In this document: positions 2,792 to 50,190 of the stretch, in pieces
Position numbering within the stretch: position 1 is the stretch's first letter
How the letters are laid out: each line of letters opens with the position of its first letter
DNA from: Verrucomicrobiia bacterium
Lineage (GTDB): Bacteria; Verrucomicrobiota; Verrucomicrobiia; Limisphaerales; JADLHS01
Assembly: GCA_026125285.1 (NCBI GenBank)
Contig: JAHCLO010000018.1
Coordinates: 62,001-126,000 of the forward strand
Length of the DNA: 64,000 nt
Reading direction: 5' to 3'
Program-made: the position numbers and the translations under genes
The notes under the pieces: generated by a model
Database searches by the model: none
What the model saw: only the letters and a program-made list of their open reading frames with translations
What the model was told of the DNA's origin: nothing

Positions 2792-3574
2792 CTACTGCTC
2801 GGCTCGACCTTCGTCTTGCGAGATTTCGTAGGCAAGGAGATAGTGCCGGCCCCCCTTGACCCATTTCACCGAGCCGTCGCACATCTGCATGTTTACCCCG
2901 TGCGCGCCGTGATTGTCATTGCGGTCGGGATAATTGTTTCTGGCGCCTGGCCCTTTGCGGTCGCCATCGAACATCAGGTAAATATCCGATGGGCCAAACA
3001 CCATGCCGCGCAAGCCAAAGGTGTTGTATTGATGCACCCAGCGGCTGACGCTGCGCTCGGTCTTGCGGGTGGTCCAGTTCATGAACGCGTTGATTTCATA
3101 ACTGACGCCGCGCAGGTCCACGTCGGCGGAACGGGAACTCAGCGCGCGCTTGTATTCCGCCTGCCGTGTCAAATCAATCAGGACCACCCGCCCGGCGTAA
3201 TTCGGTCCCCGGTTGGTGCTGATAAAGTTGTCAGTGGAGGGGCAGACAAAAACCGAACGCGCGAGCGCGCCCGAAATGTAATCTGGATACAGCCAGGTCA
3301 GGTCATCGCTGCCGTCGGTGGGCGTGCCCGAAAGCCAGCCGCCGGAATTGTCCGCCGCATACATCATCGAACCGAGGCCCATCTGCTTGAGGTTGCTGCG
3401 GCACACCGTGCGTTTGGATTTCTCGTTCGCCCCGGCGAGAGCCGGCAGCAGCATGGCCGCCAGGATGGCGATGATGGCAATGACCACCAGCAATTCGATG
3501 AGGGTGAAGGCGCGATTGCCGGTCAATTGCCGCCGGAAGGCGCGGCGACGAGGATTGGGATTCGACTTTCGCAT
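2792..3574 (-). CDS. pseudopilin-like protein with prepilin cleavage/methylation motif and C-terminal DGSV motif
   Basis: 260 residues. A basic N-terminus is followed by the type IV prepilin signal [20 protein letters not shown] (cleavage expected before Phe, with Glu at +5) and a hydrophobic helix to about residue 47. The C-terminus carries [15 protein letters not shown], the H-x9-DG pattern seen in the very numerous secreted pseudopilin-like proteins of Planctomycetes and Verrucomicrobia. It should be handled by a prepilin peptidase and anchored in the cytoplasmic membrane. It is distant in sequence from the two pseudopilins at 50.7 and 53.6 kb. It is divergent from the sulfatase gene that follows; a functional link is not shown. 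Confidence 0.85.
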
Positions 3575-7479: not shown

Positions 7480-7891
7480 ATCAGAAACGAAGTTCGCACT
7501 TTGCGCCTGTGAATCGTAGCCGCCGACGTGAGTCAGCTCTGACTTCCCTTTCCACTTCAGATGGTGCGGACTCACGTCCGCTGCTACAACATGGGAAGCT
7601 GTGACCAATCCCAGATTGGACACGCATTGGATCCATGAACAGCATGCTGCACACCTCTGGCCGGCAGATCAAATTCCTTTGTCTTCAGTGAGACCTGTCG
7701 GCGGGACGCACGGCAGCACGTTGAGGTTCACGATAAGCGGTGCGGGACCCAAACCGACAGGCTTTCCGGCGCCACGGGCCTTACACCCACTTTCCCACAG
7801 GCCAAGCGAGATGGAAGGGATGCTCGGCGCGAACACACGCTCACACAAACTCACGCGCTCTCCGCGCCTCAGAGCTAACGCATCTCCGTCA
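7480..7891. other. non-coding stretch behind the truncated sulfatase
   Basis: Apart from the family A repeat at its start, I see no convincing gene in this interval. Short open frames on both strands have no recognisable motif or signal peptide. It probably replaces the deleted body of the third sulfatase. Confidence 0.5.
7489..7590 (+). repeat. dispersed palindromic repeat, family A (copy 1)
   Basis: Contains AATCGTAGCCGCCGACGTGA and, about 50 bp later, GCGGACTCACGTCCGCTGCT. A second copy lies reversed at 40391-40500 inside the ABC permease gene. The two copies match at 32 of 36 positions over the first block and 20 of 22 over the second. Here the copy lies just behind the broken sulfatase. 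Confidence 0.7.
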
Positions 7892-18540: not shown

Positions 18541-18675
18541 CGTAGCGGCGGCTCGGCAGAGCACCGCCATTCCAACCCCAGCCAGTATGCGGCGTTCTAC
18601 CGAGACGCCGCTCCGGTTTATGGCCCGGATGCGCGTCCGCAGTTGAACGTGGGAGCTCTCCATGAACCGCGGCTC

Positions 18676-18743
18676 GGAGCGCGGACAGCCTTGTCCGCGT
18701 GAACCTCGGTATCGGAACTCGCGGACAAGGCTGTCCGCGCTCC
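18676..18743. repeat. near-perfect inverted repeat, 24-bp arms
   Basis: Left arm begins GGAGCGCGGACAGCCTTGTC and the right arm is its exact reverse complement, ending GACAAGGCTGTCCGCGCTCC, with a 20-bp spacer. As RNA it would form a long hairpin. No T-run follows, so it is more likely a dispersed palindromic element than a terminator. Confidence 0.75.
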
Positions 18744-18799
18744 GGGGTTCATGGCCCCAAGGCGCGTCCGTTCTCGGAGATCGAAGCTCTCCATTTACC

Positions 18800-42919: not shown

Positions 42920-43249
42920 ACTTCCTCGTTGATGCGCAACTCCCGCCGGCGCTCGCGCGGTGGATTGCCAGCCAGGGGCATGAGGCCACACACGTCTTCG
43001 ATCTGGGCTTCCACACCGCCGATGATCCAGTGATTTGGGGAGCGCGCCCGTAACGAGCAGTCGGTCATTATCAGCAAGGATGAGGATTTTGTTGACCACT
43101 GGCTCTTGAGCGACCGGCCGGTCGCGCTCATTTGGATTCGCAAAGGGAATTGTTCAAACCGCGCCTTGCTGGCCTGGCTCGAACCCTTGTGGCCGGATGC
43201 CCTCAAGCGGCTGGAGCAGGGAGAAAAGTTCATCGAGCTCCGGGCGTAG
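42916..43249 (+). pseudogene. DUF5615 PIN-like toxin, frameshifted
   Basis: Starts at GTG: NFLVDAQLPPALARWIASQG, HEATHVFDLGFHTADDPVIW, the N-terminal acidic half of a PIN-like nuclease of the DUF5615 type. In the run of G at 43037-43040 there is one base too many, giving GARP and a stop. One frame over, the protein resumes as ERARNEQSVIISKDEDFVDH (with the conserved KDEDF) and runs to FIELRA at 43249. Toxin loss with a retained antitoxin is a common outcome; a sequencing error is the other explanation. Confidence 0.8.
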
Positions 43250-43447
43250 AACATTGTTTGCTGGTATGACGCGTGGGAGCACCCGGAAATCCCAACGTTG
43301 AACGCCACGTTTCCGCATCACAAGCACTGCCTGCCGAACCTCCGCGAAAACCGCGCGCCCGCGCCCGGAATCAGTTTCACGGCCCCGAACGTGGAGGTGG
43401 TCTTACCGGACGTGCGCCGTGCGCGGGTTGCGCAAGGTGACGATTGA
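43250..43447 (+). pseudogene. remnant of a TumE/DUF6516-like toxin
   Basis: The frame directly after the PIN toxin stop reads CWYDAWEHPEIPTLNATFPH, HKHCLPNLRENRAPAPGISF and NVEVVLPDVRRARVAQGDD before a stop. Phrases like YD...HPE-PT...PHHKH are typical of the C-terminal half of DUF6516 (TumE) proteins. There is no start codon or N-terminal half, so this is a fragment. The assignment rests on a short motif only. Confidence 0.4.
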
Positions 43448-43491
43448 TTCGATTGGTGGGGGTTGGAGACGGGGCGAAATTTGCGAGACCC

Positions 43492-43539
43492 GCAGCCGAA
43501 GCTGCGCAAAATTATTCTGAGTGAATCGTTCTGGTCGTT
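43492..43539 (+). repeat. direct repeat D, copy 2 (right of toxin-antitoxin genes)
   Basis: GCAGCCGAAGCTGCGCAAAA ... GTTCTGGTCGTT, in the same orientation as 42528-42574. Conserved flanking bases (GCGAAATTT) extend the similarity about 20 bp upstream in both copies. Confidence 0.65.
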
Positions 43540-43634
43540 TCCGCGTTGCCTGATACCGAATTCACTCGAAACCATGTAGGGTCACTCCTACCTTCGCATG
43601 TCATCGTGACCTGACGCCGTGCCAACACCGTACG

Positions 43635-45221
43635 ATGAGTGAAAATGTCAAAATTGAATTGCTGCCGCTGGGCAAGACGCTCGAAGTGGAACGCGGCACG
43701 CCTTTACAGGATTTGCTCTTTGCGCATGGGGTTGAGTTTCCCTGCGGCGGACGCGGACGCTGCAAGGGCTGCAAAGTCAAAGTCCTCGTCGGCACATTGC
43801 CGATCACCGACGAAGACCGCAAGAAACTGACGAGTACCGAGTTGGCGGACGGCTGGCGGCTTGCGTGCCGCAGTCGGGCCGAAGGCGATTTGCAGCTCGA
43901 ACTCGCGCAATGGGAAGCAACCATCCTGACAGACGACACGGTGTTCGATTTCACACCGCAGGACGGGTTGGGCGTTGCGATTGATCTCGGCACGACGACG
44001 ATCGTGGCGCAACTGCTGGACCTGCGTACCGGCCACGTCCTGGCGGTGCGAACGGCACTCAACCGCCAGGCGCAACACGGCGCGGACATCATGAGCCGCG
44101 TGGAGTTCGCCGTGGCTGGCGGCGGACAGGCACAATTGAAAAGGCTCATACGCGAACAAGTTGGCGAACTTGTCCAGGAACTGCTCGGCGTCAATGCGGC
44201 GTCAGGTAGGGTGCGTCACTCCGTGCGCGCCGCAATACCGCAAGCCGACAACGGCGCGCGCGGAGTGACGCGCCCTACCAGTGCCGCGGATTTGAAACAC
44301 ATCGTCCTCGTTGGCAACACAGTCATGCACCACCTGTTTTGCGGCGTCAGTGTCGAACCGCTGTCGCATTATCCATTTGCGCCAATGGACGACGGATTGC
44401 GCGTGTTAACCGCCGATGACCTGGGCTGGAAGGTGGACGCTACGGTGTCAGTCCGTTTTCTTCCGTGCCTCGGTGGATTTGTCGGCAGCGACATTCTGGC
44501 CGGTGTGCTGGCCATTAAACTGCACGAGCGTGAAGCGCTGGTGGCGTTGGTGGACCTCGGCACGAACGGCGAAATTGTCGTCGGCAACCGCGAACGAATG
44601 TTGTGCGCCTCGACGGCGGCGGGTCCAGCGTTCGAAGGCGCGCGCATCTGGATGGGCATGCGCGCCGTGACCGGGGCGATTTCCGAGGTGCATATCGCGG
44701 ATGGCGGATTGCACTGTCACGTGTTGGGCAACGCCGCGCCGCGCGGCATCTGCGGCAGCGGTCTTGTGGATACAGTGGCGGGTGCGCTGGAACTGGGCTG
44801 GGTTAAACCGAACGGCAGGCTGGCCAACGGCAGCGATTTCACGCTCGCCGGGCCAGTGAAGGTCTCGCAGACGGACATACGCGAACTCCAACTCGCCAAA
44901 GGCGCCATTGCCGCCGGACTTGAAGTGCTGCTCCGCCAATGGGGTGCGACGAAAGCAGACTTGACGCGGGTTTATCTGGCCGGCGCGTTCGGCAATTACA
45001 TCAACCTCACCAGCGCGCGGCGGATCGGGCTGCTGGATTTTCCGGCGGACAACATTCAGCCTGCAGGTAACACCGCTTTGCTGGGAGCGAAGCTGGCGTT
45101 GTTTGGATTGCGTGAACACGACGCGGATTATCCCGACTTGCGGCGCAAGATCAGCCACGTCTCATTGCACGAAGACCCGCACTTCCAGAAAACCTACGTG
45201 GAGCAGATGACTTTCCCGTAG
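43635..45221 (+). CDS. RACo-like [2Fe-2S]/ASKHA ATPase (DUF4445), corrinoid-protein reductive activator type
   Basis: 528 residues. The N-terminal ferredoxin domain has the cluster ligands in FPCGGRGRCKGCKVKVLVG and the fourth Cys in WRLACRSRAEGD. The ASKHA-type ATPase part follows: GVAIDLGTTTIVAQLLDLRT, HIVLVGNTVMHHLFCGV, ALVALVDLGTNGEIVVGN and RGICGSGLVDTVAGALELGW, and near the end VYLAGAFGNYINLTSARRIG. The family reactivates Co(II) corrinoid cofactors of methyltransferases at the cost of ATP. Between the first ATPase segments, about 26 residues (GRVRHSVRAAIPQADNGARG plus six) come from a palindromic repeat inserted in frame. No corrinoid methyltransferase is visible nearby. Confidence 0.92.
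   Translation: MSENVKIELLPLGKTLEVERGTPLQDLLFAHGVEFPCGGRGRCKGCKVKVLVGTLPITDEDRKKLTSTELADGWRLACRSRAEGDLQLELAQWEATILTDDTVFDFTPQDGLGVAIDLGTTTIVAQLLDLRTGHVLAVRTALNRQAQHGADIMSRVEFAVAGGGQAQLKRLIREQVGELVQELLGVNAASGRVRHSVRAAIPQADNGARGVTRPTSAADLKHIVLVGNTVMHHLFCGVSVEPLSHYPFAPMDDGLRVLTADDLGWKVDATVSVRFLPCLGGFVGSDILAGVLAIKLHEREALVALVDLGTNGEIVVGNRERMLCASTAAGPAFEGARIWMGMRAVTGAISEVHIADGGLHCHVLGNAAPRGICGSGLVDTVAGALELGWVKPNGRLANGSDFTLAGPVKVSQTDIRELQLAKGAIAAGLEVLLRQWGATKADLTRVYLAGAFGNYINLTSARRIGLLDFPADNIQPAGNTALLGAKLALFGLREHDADYPDLRRKISHVSLHEDPHFQKTYVEQMTFP
44205..44280. repeat. dispersed palindromic repeat, family B (copy 1), in frame inside the RACo-like gene
   Basis: Two 27-bp arms (44205-44231 and 44253-44279) that are reverse complements with two mismatches, starting GGTAGGGTGCGTCACTCCGT, around a 21-bp centre. 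Copy 2 at 49069-49144 matches 25 of 27 bases of the left arm. Confidence 0.85.
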
Positions 45222-45348
45222 CGCCAAAGCAGTCGGAACTTGATTCGCGTCAAAGCCGATGGGGCGCATCTGGGCAATAAATGACATTGGAATGACAAAA
45301 TCAGTGTGGCCGATCTGGCAGACAACGTCGAGGATGGCCGCAGGTATC

Positions 45349-45651
45349 ATGAAAACCGAGCCGATGCACCACGAATCTGGAAGCGAAACTGAAAGCGCCC
45401 TCCGGTGTGAAGTGTGCCCGCTCAGTTGCGTGAAGGCGGGCGTGGCCGTGCGCATCAAACGGCTCTGCGCCGCGCCGGAGGTTCAGGAACGTCTGCGCGA
45501 AATTGGCCTGTGCGAGGAACGAGTCATCCGCCTGCTGACCAGCCATACTAACTTCATTTGCCAGGTCTGTAACGCGCGGCTCGCCATCAGCGAGCAACTT
45601 GCACGGTTGATCATGGTTGAGCCGATGCCCGCGCCGGTTGCATCTCGGTGA
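45349..45651 (+). CDS. feoA: FeoA domain protein with N-terminal Cys motif
   Basis: 100 residues. After a hydrophilic N-terminus comes CEVCPLSCVKAGVAVRIKRL and the FeoA/SH3-like core VQERLREIGLCEERVIRLLT with FICQVCNARLAISEQLARLI. FeoA assists the FeoB ferrous iron transporter; here no FeoB is next to it, and the extra Cys (CEVCPLSC; CQVC) may bind metal. It ends inside the 3' end of the oppositely oriented GltD-like gene (41-bp convergent overlap). The frame also opens 30 codons upstream, without similarity. Confidence 0.8.
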   Translation: MKTEPMHHESGSETESALRCEVCPLSCVKAGVAVRIKRLCAAPEVQERLREIGLCEERVIRLLTSHTNFICQVCNARLAISEQLARLIMVEPMPAPVASR

Positions 45652-47053
45652 GATACCGGTGAATTCCGGCGGCGGCCCGACGGCCGTCGCGCACTGCGTG
45701 GACCACCAGGCTCGGCCCGCGCACCACGTCGCCACCGGCAAACACACCCGCCACGTTGGTCATCGAATTCGCATCTGTCTTCGTCGCACCCCATTCATTG
45801 ACGGCAATCCGTGACAGGTCGCTCTCCGGCGGAAACGGCACGGGATCGAAGCCGTAAGCCACCAGGATCAAATCCGCCGGCAGGGTGACTTCCGAACCGG
45901 GCACAACGCGTGGCCGGCGCCTGCCCGATGCGTCCGGCTCGCCCAGTTCCATGCGGGCACAACGCACGGCGGTGACTTCACCACTAGTGTTGCCTTCAAT
46001 CGCGAGGGGATTGGTGAGGAACATGAAGCGCGCGCCTTCCTCGAGGGCGTTGTAGTATTCCTTCCGGCTGCCCGGCATGTTGGCGAGATCGCGACGATAG
46101 ACACAGAGAGTCTCCACGGCCCCGCAACGGATGGCCGTCCGCAGACAGTCCATGGCCGTGTCGCCTCCGCCCAACACGATCACGCGCTTGCCCTTCACTG
46201 CCACCGGTGGCAGATCCAATCCGATAGGTGCGTTCTTCTGCGCGAGGAAGGGCAAGCCCTGGTAAACGCCCTTCAAGCCCGCGCCCGGAACGTCGAGCAG
46301 CTTGGGCTTCAGCGCGCCAATGCCCAGGAACACAGCGTCAAACTCCTTCAGCAAGGTATCGAGATTGACATCTCGGCCAACGGTGAGGCCCGCCTTGAAC
46401 TGAACACCCTGCCGCTTGAGGATGTTAACCCGCCGTTGCACCACGGTCTTCTCCAGTTTGAATGCCGGGATGCCGTACATCAGCAACCCGCCCGGCAGCA
46501 GTTGCGATTCAAACACCGTGACGGTATAGCCGAGCTTCGACAATTCGTCCGCGCACGCCAATCCGCCCGGCCCGGCGCCGACAATGGCCACGGTTTTGCC
46601 ATTGGGGGATACCTGGTGAATCGGCACGGCACCGCGCGCCAGGGCGTATTCATTGATGAACTTCTCGATGGCCCCGATGCAAATGGGCTCTTCCGGACTG
46701 TGAATTACACAAGCGCCCTCGCACAACTTTTCCTGCGGACAAACGCGCGGACATATCTCCGGCATGTTGCTCGTCGCGCGGGACAGTTCGGCGGCCTCCA
46801 GGAAATGGCCTTCGGCGGCGAGCGCCAGCCACTCGGGAATTCGGTTGTTGAGCGGGCAACCTTCGACGCAGGCCGGCGAGGCGCATTGCACACAGCGGCT
46901 CGCTTGCTCGCGGATCGTCGCTTCGTCGAAGAGGGAGTAGATTTCGTGAAAGTCGCTGACACGATCTTCGGCCGCGCGCTTGGGCGGGTCGCGACGTTCA
47001 ATCTCGCGCCAGGCGTAACGGGCCTGACCGGTGGGCGGAGGTTGCTGGCTCAT
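45611..47053 (-). CDS. GltD-like NADPH-dependent oxidoreductase (glutamate synthase small-subunit family)
   Basis: 480 residues. The N-terminal Fe-S region is typical: EQASRCVQCASPACVEGCPL and PEICPRVCPQEKLCEGACVI. Then come the FAD-binding motif VAIVGAGPGGLACADELSKL, VFESQLLPGGLLMYGIPAFK, and the NADPH-binding VIVLGGGDTAMDCLRTAIRC, with a final FAD contact VFAGGDVVRGPSLVVHAVRD. The family includes GltD, PreT and NfnB. There is no large glutamate synthase subunit next to it, so GltD is not certain. I chose the Met at MSQQPPPTGQ. Confidence 0.88.
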   Translation of the reverse strand: MSQQPPPTGQARYAWREIERRDPPKRAAEDRVSDFHEIYSLFDEATIREQASRCVQCASPACVEGCPLNNRIPEWLALAAEGHFLEAAELSRATSNMPEICPRVCPQEKLCEGACVIHSPEEPICIGAIEKFINEYALARGAVPIHQVSPNGKTVAIVGAGPGGLACADELSKLGYTVTVFESQLLPGGLLMYGIPAFKLEKTVVQRRVNILKRQGVQFKAGLTVGRDVNLDTLLKEFDAVFLGIGALKPKLLDVPGAGLKGVYQGLPFLAQKNAPIGLDLPPVAVKGKRVIVLGGGDTAMDCLRTAIRCGAVETLCVYRRDLANMPGSRKEYYNALEEGARFMFLTNPLAIEGNTSGEVTAVRCARMELGEPDASGRRRPRVVPGSEVTLPADLILVAYGFDPVPFPPESDLSRIAVNEWGATKTDANSMTNVAGVFAGGDVVRGPSLVVHAVRDGRRAAAGIHRYLTEMQPARASAQP

Positions 47054-47069
47054 AGGCGCGCAATCTACT

Positions 47070-48089
47070 TCAACTCCCGCCGCCAAGGAAAGCTTTCACC
47101 ATGCTCTCCAGCACGCCGATCCAGGCGGGATGCTCGTTCAGGCAGGGAATGCGCGTGAACTCCTTGCCACTGGCCTTCATAAAATCTTCGCAGCCGCGCA
47201 TGCCGATTTCCTCGATGGTTTCGAGACAATCCGAAACGAACGCCGGGCAAATGACCATCATCTTCTTCTTGCCTTCCTGCGCCAGCCGCACCAGTTCGTA
47301 ATCCGTGTAGGGTTTAAGCCACGGGTCCTTGCCGAGGCGCGACTGGAAGGAGACGGAGTATTTCTCCTTCGGTATCCCGGCCCGTTCCACAAAGGCGGCG
47401 GTGGTGGCCAGGCATTGCGCGCGGTAACACCTGGCGTGTGCCGGACTGGCGACTTCACAGCAATTCTCCACCTTCAAGCAATGACAGCCCGTCGGGTCCG
47501 ACTTGCGCAAATGGCGCTCCGGAATGCCGTGATAGCTGAACAACAAATGATCGTAGTCCTGCTTCAGAAAACTCTCCGTGCTGGCCACCAGTGCCGCGAT
47601 GAAATCGGGATGATCGTAATACGGCGGTTGCACCGTGAGTTTCATCCCGGGCGCGAACCTGGCCGCGACCTCCTGCACGCGCACCACGGCGGTTTCGTAG
47701 CTCGACATCGCGTAGTGCGGAAACAGCGGAATCAACAGCACATCATCCACCCCTTTGCTGAGGAGTTGCTTCACGGCAAACTCTATTGAGGGATTCTGAT
47801 AACGCATCGCCAGTTCCACCGGCACGCTCACGCGTTGCTGGAGCGCCGCCTGGACATGTTTGCTGGTGACCACGAGCGGCGAGCCGTCCTTGGTCCAGAT
47901 TTTCTCGTAGGCGTGGCCGGATTCCGCCGGACGTTTGATGAGGATCATGCCGACGACGAAGCGGCGCAGCAGCCAGGGCGTGTCAATCACCCGCTCGTCC
48001 ATCAGGAACTCGTTCAGGTACCGGCGCACGTCCGGCACGGACGGCGAATCCGGCGACCCCAGATTGACCAGCAGTATTCCTTTGCTCAT
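47070..48089 (-). CDS. hemH: ferrochelatase
   Basis: 339 residues. It inserts Fe2+ into protoporphyrin IX. The N-terminus GILLVNLGSPDSPSVPDVRR, the catalytic His in HLLFSYHGIPERHLRKSDPT and the conserved Glu region FVSDCLETIEEIGMRGCEDF are present. After the His motif is a Cys-rich loop (GCHCLKVENCCEVASPAHAR followed by CYRAQC), as in the bacterial ferrochelatases that carry an internal [2Fe-2S] cluster. The gene ends 16 bp before the GltD-like gene. Protoporphyrinogen oxidase, the preceding step, is encoded about 7 kb further on, on the same strand. Confidence 0.95.
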   Translation of the reverse strand: MSKGILLVNLGSPDSPSVPDVRRYLNEFLMDERVIDTPWLLRRFVVGMILIKRPAESGHAYEKIWTKDGSPLVVTSKHVQAALQQRVSVPVELAMRYQNPSIEFAVKQLLSKGVDDVLLIPLFPHYAMSSYETAVVRVQEVAARFAPGMKLTVQPPYYDHPDFIAALVASTESFLKQDYDHLLFSYHGIPERHLRKSDPTGCHCLKVENCCEVASPAHARCYRAQCLATTAAFVERAGIPKEKYSVSFQSRLGKDPWLKPYTDYELVRLAQEGKKKMMVICPAFVSDCLETIEEIGMRGCEDFMKASGKEFTRIPCLNEHPAWIGVLESMVKAFLGGGS

Positions 48090-48261
48090 GCGTTTCGCGG
48101 AATCAACAAACCATTGAATGAGCGCAAGACTACAACTCGCAAACGCGCCAAGTCACGTCAGAACAAGGCGACAGTGGCTTGATCAGGGACGAGGACGAAA
48201 TGGCAATTTGGACTTTCCCTACACGCTCTCAGACGTGCTGAGGCGCGTTCGGCTTTTGGGT

Positions 48262-49062
48262 TCAGCCCGGTGCCGACTCCTTTGCGGCTTCAAGTGGAAG
48301 TTGAGCGAGTGATTCCTTGTTGCCCGGCAGGTGAATAATGGCCGGGCGAACGGCCAGCGCGGCTTCAGCACGCACCGGATGCCGCCATTGCCAAGATTCA
48401 CCATTCGGTATCGCTGTCTGGAATTGGCCTTCTACATCACTGGCCCACAATTCCGGGTGCGCGGCCAGGAGATGAGCCTCCGGGTCCGCGCAGAGGATTT
48501 GCATCGCGTAACCCAGCGCCTCGTCTGCGCCCATCTTCAGACCGGACAGTTTGGCTTCCTGCACGAACTGCATCGCCAGTTCATACACTTCTTCAATGGC
48601 CTCGCGGTGAACGACCCAAAACGCGCTCCGCGAGAGATATACCGCGTTGATCACACCCGCCTGCCGGAAAAGCTCGCGTAGCCGAAAGCACGAGCGCCCG
48701 CGCCATTCACGATCCTCCGTCAGGGCGGACAAGTTGACTTCCAGCGGCACATGGATCGGCGAGCGGCCCAGGCAGGCCAGCACGTCCACCGGATTCCGCA
48801 CAAACATCGTGTCCGCGTCCAGCCAGATGAAGTAGTCGAACAGCAATTTGCTCATGCCCACTTTCAGGTAGTGGAGCTTGAACAGGCCATCCGCCTTGTC
48901 GCACTGGTAGGCGTCGTAACACTCACAACCGGCGAGTGGCCGGTCGGTCAGAACGTGGAATTCCTTGAACACACCGCAGGCTCGCGCTGTGCGCACGCAA
49001 TGCTCCATCATCGCGCCATACGGGCCGTCGGCCACCGACCAATAGCAATACTTCGCGCTCAT
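48262..49062 (-). CDS. putative glycosyltransferase (GT-A fold with DxD-type motif)
   Basis: 266 residues. The segment KLLFDYFIWLDADTMFVRNP has the DAD motif of GT-A enzymes, preceded by KEFHVLTDRPLAGCECYDAY. The C-terminal half has GADEALGYAMQILCADPEAH and RPAIIHLPGNKES, as in galactosyltransferase-like or nucleotide-diphospho-sugar transferase families. No membrane helix or signal peptide. It lies behind a GT4-type glycosyltransferase on the same strand, separated by a palindromic repeat, so both may act on the same glycan. Confidence 0.65.
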   Translation of the reverse strand: MSAKYCYWSVADGPYGAMMEHCVRTARACGVFKEFHVLTDRPLAGCECYDAYQCDKADGLFKLHYLKVGMSKLLFDYFIWLDADTMFVRNPVDVLACLGRSPIHVPLEVNLSALTEDREWRGRSCFRLRELFRQAGVINAVYLSRSAFWVVHREAIEEVYELAMQFVQEAKLSGLKMGADEALGYAMQILCADPEAHLLAAHPELWASDVEGQFQTAIPNGESWQWRHPVRAEAALAVRPAIIHLPGNKESLAQLPLEAAKESAPG

Positions 49063-49068
49063 GTTCAG

Positions 49069-49144
49069 GTGGGGCGCGTCACTCCGTGCGCGCCGTTATG
49101 CGTTGGTCTGGCCCACGGCGCGCAGAGGACTGCGCGCCCTACCA
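49069..49144. repeat. dispersed palindromic repeat, family B (copy 2), intergenic
   Basis: Fills the gap between two glycosyltransferase genes: left arm GGTGGGGCGCGTCACTCCGT, right arm ending GACTGCGCGCCCTACC. It is homologous to the repeat inside the RACo-like gene at 44.2 kb. Confidence 0.8.
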
Positions 49145-49146
49145 AC

Positions 49147-50190
49147 TCAAAAACTCAACGCCTCGATCCAGCAGCGCCGATGCGCCTCAGGATTGCACAA
49201 CTGTTCCCGCGCGTACTCGGCGCCCTGCCGGCTGATCTTCATCCGATACGGGTGATTCTCGTACAACTCCCGCACCGTGGCTTTGAACTCGCGATATTCC
49301 CGGCAGATGAACCCGCTCTCGCCATGCACCATCAGCTTGTGGAACTGGTGCCCGGCGGGCACCACCGGCACCGCGCCCGTCAACATGGCCTCCACCACCG
49401 CGCGCCCCCACGATTCCTTGATGCGATGGCCCAGCGGATACAGAAACACGTCCAGGCTGTAGAGAAACTTGAGCGCCGATTCCTTCTGCGCGGACAGCAG
49501 TTCCCATTGCGGCCCGAAGCGATGCCAGCGGTATTGCTTCTGCAAATCCTGACTCCACGCCATGACGCGGTAACGCACGTCGGGCAAACCGAGTTCTTCG
49601 TAAAACACCGGAAAATCCAGCGGATACTTCTTGAGGTCCGGTCGCGAGAGCCGGCCGAGTGTGAACACCGGATTCCGCCGCTCGCGCCAGGCGTAATCGT
49701 CCGGGTCAATGTAATTGCCGGTCTGGAACGACGGCACGCCGCGATACATTTCTTCAAAAGCTTTGGCCTGAAACTCGGAGACGAACAACACGCGGTCAAT
49801 CAAGCCTTCTTTCACGGCTTCGGCTTCGCCTTTGAACGCCCACATCATTTCGTTGGACCAGACCAGCTTCAATCCGCGCGCTTTCAATTCCCGCGCGCGG
49901 CCGGACGTAAAGAACTCACCGTCACAAATCCCGAGCGCCACGCCGTCCAGTTGCCTGGGCAAATCCTTGAGCAGCGTGTACGGCAGGCCGTACGGCTGCA
50001 AAACCTGCCGCAGCTTGCTGTCCTTGAAATAACGGATGTCCGGCAGCACGACCGTGATCTTGAAATCGTTTCGCAACAGCCGCAGCAAATGCAGAATCTT
50101 GGTCGAGGCGCCGCCAATGCGGCCAGGCACACCGATCAGATACAACTTTGGCAAGTGGTTGTTAGAAGCCTGCCCGGCGAGAGACTGCAT
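49147..50190 (-). CDS. glycosyltransferase, GT4-like (GT-B fold)
   Basis: 347 residues. N-terminal domain: KLYLIGVPGRIGGASTKILH with the Gly-rich acceptor loop. C-terminal domain: NPVFTLGRLSRPDLKKYPLD, SLDVFLYPLGHRIKESWGRA and VVEAMLTGAVPVVPAGHQFH, the E-x7-E region of GT-B enzymes (ESWGRAVVEAM). It transfers a sugar from a nucleotide donor to an unknown acceptor in the cytoplasm. The stop codon borders the family B repeat. Confidence 0.85.
   Translation of the reverse strand: MQSLAGQASNNHLPKLYLIGVPGRIGGASTKILHLLRLLRNDFKITVVLPDIRYFKDSKLRQVLQPYGLPYTLLKDLPRQLDGVALGICDGEFFTSGRARELKARGLKLVWSNEMMWAFKGEAEAVKEGLIDRVLFVSEFQAKAFEEMYRGVPSFQTGNYIDPDDYAWRERRNPVFTLGRLSRPDLKKYPLDFPVFYEELGLPDVRYRVMAWSQDLQKQYRWHRFGPQWELLSAQKESALKFLYSLDVFLYPLGHRIKESWGRAVVEAMLTGAVPVVPAGHQFHKLMVHGESGFICREYREFKATVRELYENHPYRMKISRQGAEYAREQLCNPEAHRRCWIEALSF

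Follow-up and report, generated by a model that had tools for sequence, protein, structure and literature searches.

A REP doublet within the RACo-like gene

In this study, we analysed a 64-kb stretch of DNA from a Verrucomicrobiia bacterium of the order Limisphaerales (hereafter the window). Its plus strand contains a RACo-like gene (43635-45221) with an open reading frame of 528 codons, whose product comprises Fer2, RACo middle and RACo C-terminal ASKHA ATPase domains. A palindromic element of 75 bp (44205-44279, plus strand) lies in frame within this gene and encodes the 25 residues GRVRHSVRAAIPQADNGARGVTRPT. The two arms of the palindrome (44205-44232 and 44252-44279) are 28 nt each, 93% complementary and 19 nt apart; the fold energy of the corresponding RNA has a z-score of -9.4, and none of 200 dinucleotide shuffles was as good (0/200). 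The initial annotation had reported a hairpin in frame at this place, and this description holds, the ORF being open throughout.

Each arm carries one repetitive extragenic palindrome (REP) of a family here designated B. The left REP (44206-44231, plus strand) consists of a GTAG tag and a self-complementary stem, and the right REP (44253-44278, minus strand) is its inverted counterpart. Between them lies a spacer of 21 nt (44232-44252), which is unlike the spacers common to the 77-bp intergenic doublets described below. The family B arm, present in many exact copies, is GTAG followed by GGCGCGTCACTCCGTGCGCGCC, that is, GTAG + GGCGCG-T-CAC-TCC-GTG-CGCGCC, in which the stem is self-complementary. 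As REPINs are defined as two inverted REPs around a spacer (PMC3116915), and each arm is a self-complementary GTAG-tagged REP in an inverted pair around the 21-nt spacer, the RACo palindrome is a REPIN. A search of Rfam over positions 43000-50000 gave no match.

Comparison with homologs that lack the insertion had been proposed as a check by the initial annotation. When 15 proteins were aligned, the RACo orthologue from the same genus (81% identical) was devoid of the insert with its frame intact, and the net difference was 28 residues, of which 25 are encoded by the element. The closest solved relative, PDB 3zyy, aligns on both sides but leaves the insert itself unaligned. An AlphaFold model built from the same 15-protein alignment gave pLDDT values below 50 for residues 192-212, a segment preceded by a long helix (164-190) and followed by a strand (220-227), and the insert is thus predicted to be a disordered loop. 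With respect to the ends of such elements in the genes compared, the net insert ranged from 25 to 28 codons relative to empty orthologues, and the flanking codons differed when examined for a target-site duplication; the boundaries are therefore not fixed to the base.

A second copy had been noted in the window at 49069, and it is indeed intergenic: an element of 49069-49142 occupies the gap between two minus-strand ORFs resembling glycosyltransferases (49147-50190 and 48262-49062). Its left arm (49069-49094, plus strand) is the same REP, family B with the tag GTGG, but the right arm (49117-49142, minus strand) is a distinct REP, so that the element is a B+ A- heterodimer and not a plain copy. 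This second REP family, A (GTAGGGCGCGCAGTCCTCTGCGCGCC), is related to B but distinct and has 17 matches in the genome. Two further palindromes of the window belong to other families, namely K (a GGAGCGCGGACAGCCTTGTCCGCG doublet, 18675-18744) and D (GTAGCCGCCGACGTGAGG, 7516-7587).

Copy number and distribution of family B

By chance, 0.12 matches to the arm pattern were expected in the 64-kb window, and three were found. Allowing no more than one mismatch, we identified 85 + 95 (about 180) matches to the B arm core in the 7.16-Mb genome, compared with 0 for the reversed control, as well as 25 perfect doublets. The proposal that the palindrome is a dispersed element that inserts in frame is borne out by these numbers, together with the in-frame copies in several genes described below. 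Several features of the GTAG REP class were found in family B: a short palindromic stem with an unpaired GTAG tag, high copy number, and a dispersed, mostly intergenic location. Covariation within the arms of family B was not above permutation. In its sister family F (GTAGGGTCGTCGC), 41 distinct arms yielded 21 compensated pair cells versus a permutation maximum of 12, a count that is inflated by related copies. Compensatory changes in F, not in B, support the putative folding of each arm as a hairpin of its own.

When this genome and its relatives were sampled, family B was detected in 25 of 57 genomes. The number of matches per genome was uneven, with 287 in G004, 135 in G007, 88 in G053 and five in G001, which belongs to the same genus. 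In an exact-pattern scan of named genomes, all matches listed were labelled Verrucomicrobia, mostly subdivision 3, Limisphaerales or Pedosphaera, and a few Akkermansia. Repeats of family B have spread among Limisphaerales-type Verrucomicrobia. Other families that occupy loops shared with B, F and E (GTAGTGGCACAGGCGTCT), are real dispersed repeats as well: for F, 70 copies were counted in G008, 29 in G110 and 0 in this genome, and for E, 37 in G005 and 22 in this genome. The copy lists of F in G008 and of E in G005 contain the very copies found in the MqnE gene.

Intergenic and in-gene doublets

The census of elements was based on a 527-kb sample around listed copies, which is biased to exact-core copies and first contigs, and in which genes were called by our own codon-usage scores instead of annotation. 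Among the 83 elements of this sample, 47 were inverted (+-) doublets (49 B+B- at a looser threshold); with A/B heterodimers added, inverted pairs were commoner than singles, as in the REPIN class. The majority of doublets lay outside coding regions and were mainly 76-78 bp, typically 77 bp, many of them with one of two spacer types. In-gene doublets were mostly 69-74 bp, had unrelated spacers, and many were A/B heterodimers. A length below 75 bp was found for 11 of 12 in-gene doublets versus seven of 49 elsewhere (Fisher P = 8e-7). Because the two classes do not have their spacers in common, the in-gene doublets are not simply recent copies of the intergenic class.

About a dozen in-frame gene copies were present in the 527-kb sample. 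Besides RACo, their hosts, as assigned by Pfam/NCBIfam, include LeuRS, PriA, MqnE, NuoM, a DNA methylase and two protein kinases, each with an insert in its activation loop. The NuoM site was empty in G001, G005 and G008. The encoded peptide and the reading frame of the element vary from one host gene to another. The frame was kept in 12 of 13 elements with both flanks coding on one strand (the 12 include two paralogues and one doubtful element, L216), and in 14 of 15 (P = 2e-6) when two elements just below the score threshold were added. Hence, the random disruption of frames that the initial annotation had named as refuting evidence was not seen in the sampled copies. Purging of insertions that break the frame would produce such an excess, which alone is no proof of an insertion bias.

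Several of these host genes carry more than one element. In the LeuRS gene, a second in-frame palindrome of another family (GCGGCGCCTCGGCC..., L110:9246-9311) lies beside the B doublet. One protein kinase gene (L072) has two in-frame palindromes of different families: the N-lobe region holds one of family E (3108-3222), and the activation loop holds an A/B doublet (3452-3524). The DNA methylase region (L228:3374-6477; G000:C4, about 85.6-88.7 kb) is repeated in tandem about three times with a period of 1493 bp, with A/B REPs in the coding frame of each unit. We considered whether this 1.5-kb tandem repetition might be a RAYT with its REPs; this was rejected, as it is a DNA methylase gene with REPs and no transposase.

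Different repeat families at the same loop

The MqnE site was surveyed in 196 genomes of the order, of which 180 had a match, some of these matches being paralogues. The site was uninterrupted in roughly 140 of the 180 genomes, and 30 orthologues that were read had it empty. Among the inserts that were read, about 20 held a palindrome above the shuffle maximum; these palindromes were mostly GTAG- or GGAG-tagged, and according to our own grouping they represent at least seven REP families, for example, F in G008, E in G005 and D in G010. At one locus (L360), two elements occur in succession. Between REP families at this one site, the flanking codons differ and the peptides are unrelated. The family B inserts of G004, G073 and this genome have similar spacers, and may therefore share an origin or have been transferred. 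The two other genes showed a comparable pattern: the RACo site holds family D in G004 and G010, and the LeuRS site holds family C (GTAGGGCAGGCGTCT) in G008 and, in degenerate form, in G001. The initial annotation had regarded the same peptide in other genera as an observation that would speak against it; that peptide is absent there, but several of the orthologues hold a REPIN of another family at the site.

Long compound inserts were also observed at five MqnE loci (L347, L350, L343, L340 and L345), with outer arms of the GGAG type and inner palindromes. They look like insertions nested within one another at this loop.

When orthologues of MqnE, LeuRS and RACo were scanned for palindromes of any kind, every strong one inside the aligned gene coincided with the site occupied in this genome, and the rest of the gene had none, although these genes had been picked because they already carried an insert, and tolerance of the loop predicts an identical pattern. 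One explanation is that target sequence, replication-fork geometry or DNA structure steers insertion to these positions, so that a few loops would be recurrent landing sites, directed and not merely tolerated, with at least seven GTAG/GGAG families at one MqnE codon position and others in LeuRS and RACo. The fact that the MqnE inserts read split the gene at one place across the order fits such steering. However, a single site is used by REP families with different arms, and its flanking codons differ; taken together with the way the genes were chosen, this makes directed insertion rather unlikely in our assessment.

Another possibility is that each loop inherited one ancient REPIN, the arms of which were later replaced by those of REP families active at the time. 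The MqnE inserts are concentrated in some taxonomic families, being present in all members of f1 read except G007 and in 3/3 of f15; the occurrence of A/B heterodimers and of in-gene spacers unrelated to the intergenic ones could be explained in the same way. On the other hand, the inserts cluster only weakly by taxonomic family (P about 0.02), and the site is empty in most genomes of the order. Spacers of different families at the same site are no more alike than those at different sites (best score 7 versus 8), and an apparent spacer similarity that we had considered as a sign of arm overwriting was rejected, as it was not above background. We consider this turnover of an inherited element somewhat less probable still than directed insertion.

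It might also be assumed that selection acts on the peptide or the mRNA hairpin, for instance because it slows translation or modifies the enzyme, given that the hosts include essential-type genes (LeuRS, PriA and NuoM) and the activation loop of two kinases. Such a function is quite improbable because frames and peptides differ: both the peptide sequence and the reading frame of the element change from gene to gene, and different families encode unrelated peptides at the same site. Moreover, the RACo gene of the same genus has an intact frame without any insert. An assembly artefact or a chimeric read is the least credible of the explanations and can hardly be true. The compared genomes are draft assemblies, many probably derived from metagenomes, but the ORF is open across the insert, and this architecture recurs at many loci as well as in independent genomes.

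Overall, we regard it as very probable that these elements are best explained as REPINs that were mobilised in the RAYT manner and survive in permissive loops where the frame is kept. In the literature, Y1 transposases called RAYTs are regarded as the enzymes that move REPs and REPINs in trans (PMC3733652, PMC3116915, PMC6006769). B-type REPs would likewise be moved in trans by RAYTs via single-stranded DNA, and most insertions that land in genes would be purged. The survivors would reside in surface loops or linkers that tolerate 24-28 added residues with the frame kept. If tolerant loops are few, the same loops would be reached by different REPIN families in different lineages. A benefit to the host is unnecessary for explaining the data. 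The loops hit by many repeat families provide a natural test between steering of repeats into genes and their survival where proteins tolerate them.

Relationship to known REP systems and Y1 transposases

GTAG REPs located within genes and in frame have been described previously, with the highest number in the verrucomicrobium Opitutus terrae (PMC3733652). The suggestion that such elements are undescribed in Verrucomicrobia must therefore be withdrawn, as the GTAG REPs within Opitutus terrae genes were published in 2013. Like family B, the GTAG superfamily and its Opitutus terrae members have a GTAG/GTGG tag, a short stem, high copy number, a mostly intergenic location and frequent inverted doublets, and Opitutus terrae also has in-frame copies that add 20-30 residues in conserved genes (PMC3733652). 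The arm sequence of family B is its own; it may equal that of one of the 24 published families, such as GTAG-20 (PMC3733652). It was also reported that two Xanthomonas species have different REPs at about the same recB site, and an insertion into a flexible linker or loop was suggested to be potentially neutral (PMC3733652). The recB case is a precedent for the same-loop pattern; apart from it, the order-wide reuse of one loop by several families goes beyond that account.

The REPINs of Pseudomonas and E. coli resemble family B in their inverted REPs, less conserved spacer, predicted single long hairpin and excess of doublets over singles, but they are described as extragenic and tied to a particular RAYT (PMC3116915), whereas B has an in-frame gene class and no RAYT was found for it among the Y1 loci read. 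The likeness to Rickettsia palindromic elements that had been pointed out is valid for their behaviour, since those are also short palindromes of several families lying in frame in conserved proteins. It does not extend to the sequence: RPE-4 and RPE-6 belong to a CGTC-tagged superfamily (PMC3733652), in contrast to the GTAG tag of B, and neither a sequence relation nor shared descent emerged here.

In a literature search that mostly excluded subscription papers, no paper joined Pedosphaera with repetitive extragenic palindromes, and nothing on REPs or palindromes in Opitutus terrae was retrieved beyond PMC3733652. Within this literature, we found no description of the sequence of family B, of its in-gene class or of a recurrence of inserts across the order at a single MqnE codon position. 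The data reveal a lineage in which selfish repeats have repeatedly added peptides to core enzymes. With regard to annotation, unusual inserts of 25 residues in proteins of Verrucomicrobia, such as VGRVTPCAP...GAHGVTRPT and similar ones, derive from repeats.

With regard to the transposase, no B or A REP was located within 1.5 kb of the Y1 transposase matches read in ten genomes, nine of which are B-rich; these included all 11 Y1_Tnp loci of this genome (assembly about 95% complete), while several in G004 and G016 were left out. A cognate RAYT for B was not found near any of these matches. G053 (97% complete) had no Y1_Tnp match at all despite its 88 B matches, which implies that B persists or has spread without a visible transposase in that genome. 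Other GTAG/GGAG REP families were found flanking three Y1 genes of this genome, namely E at L040, J at L038 and K at L037.
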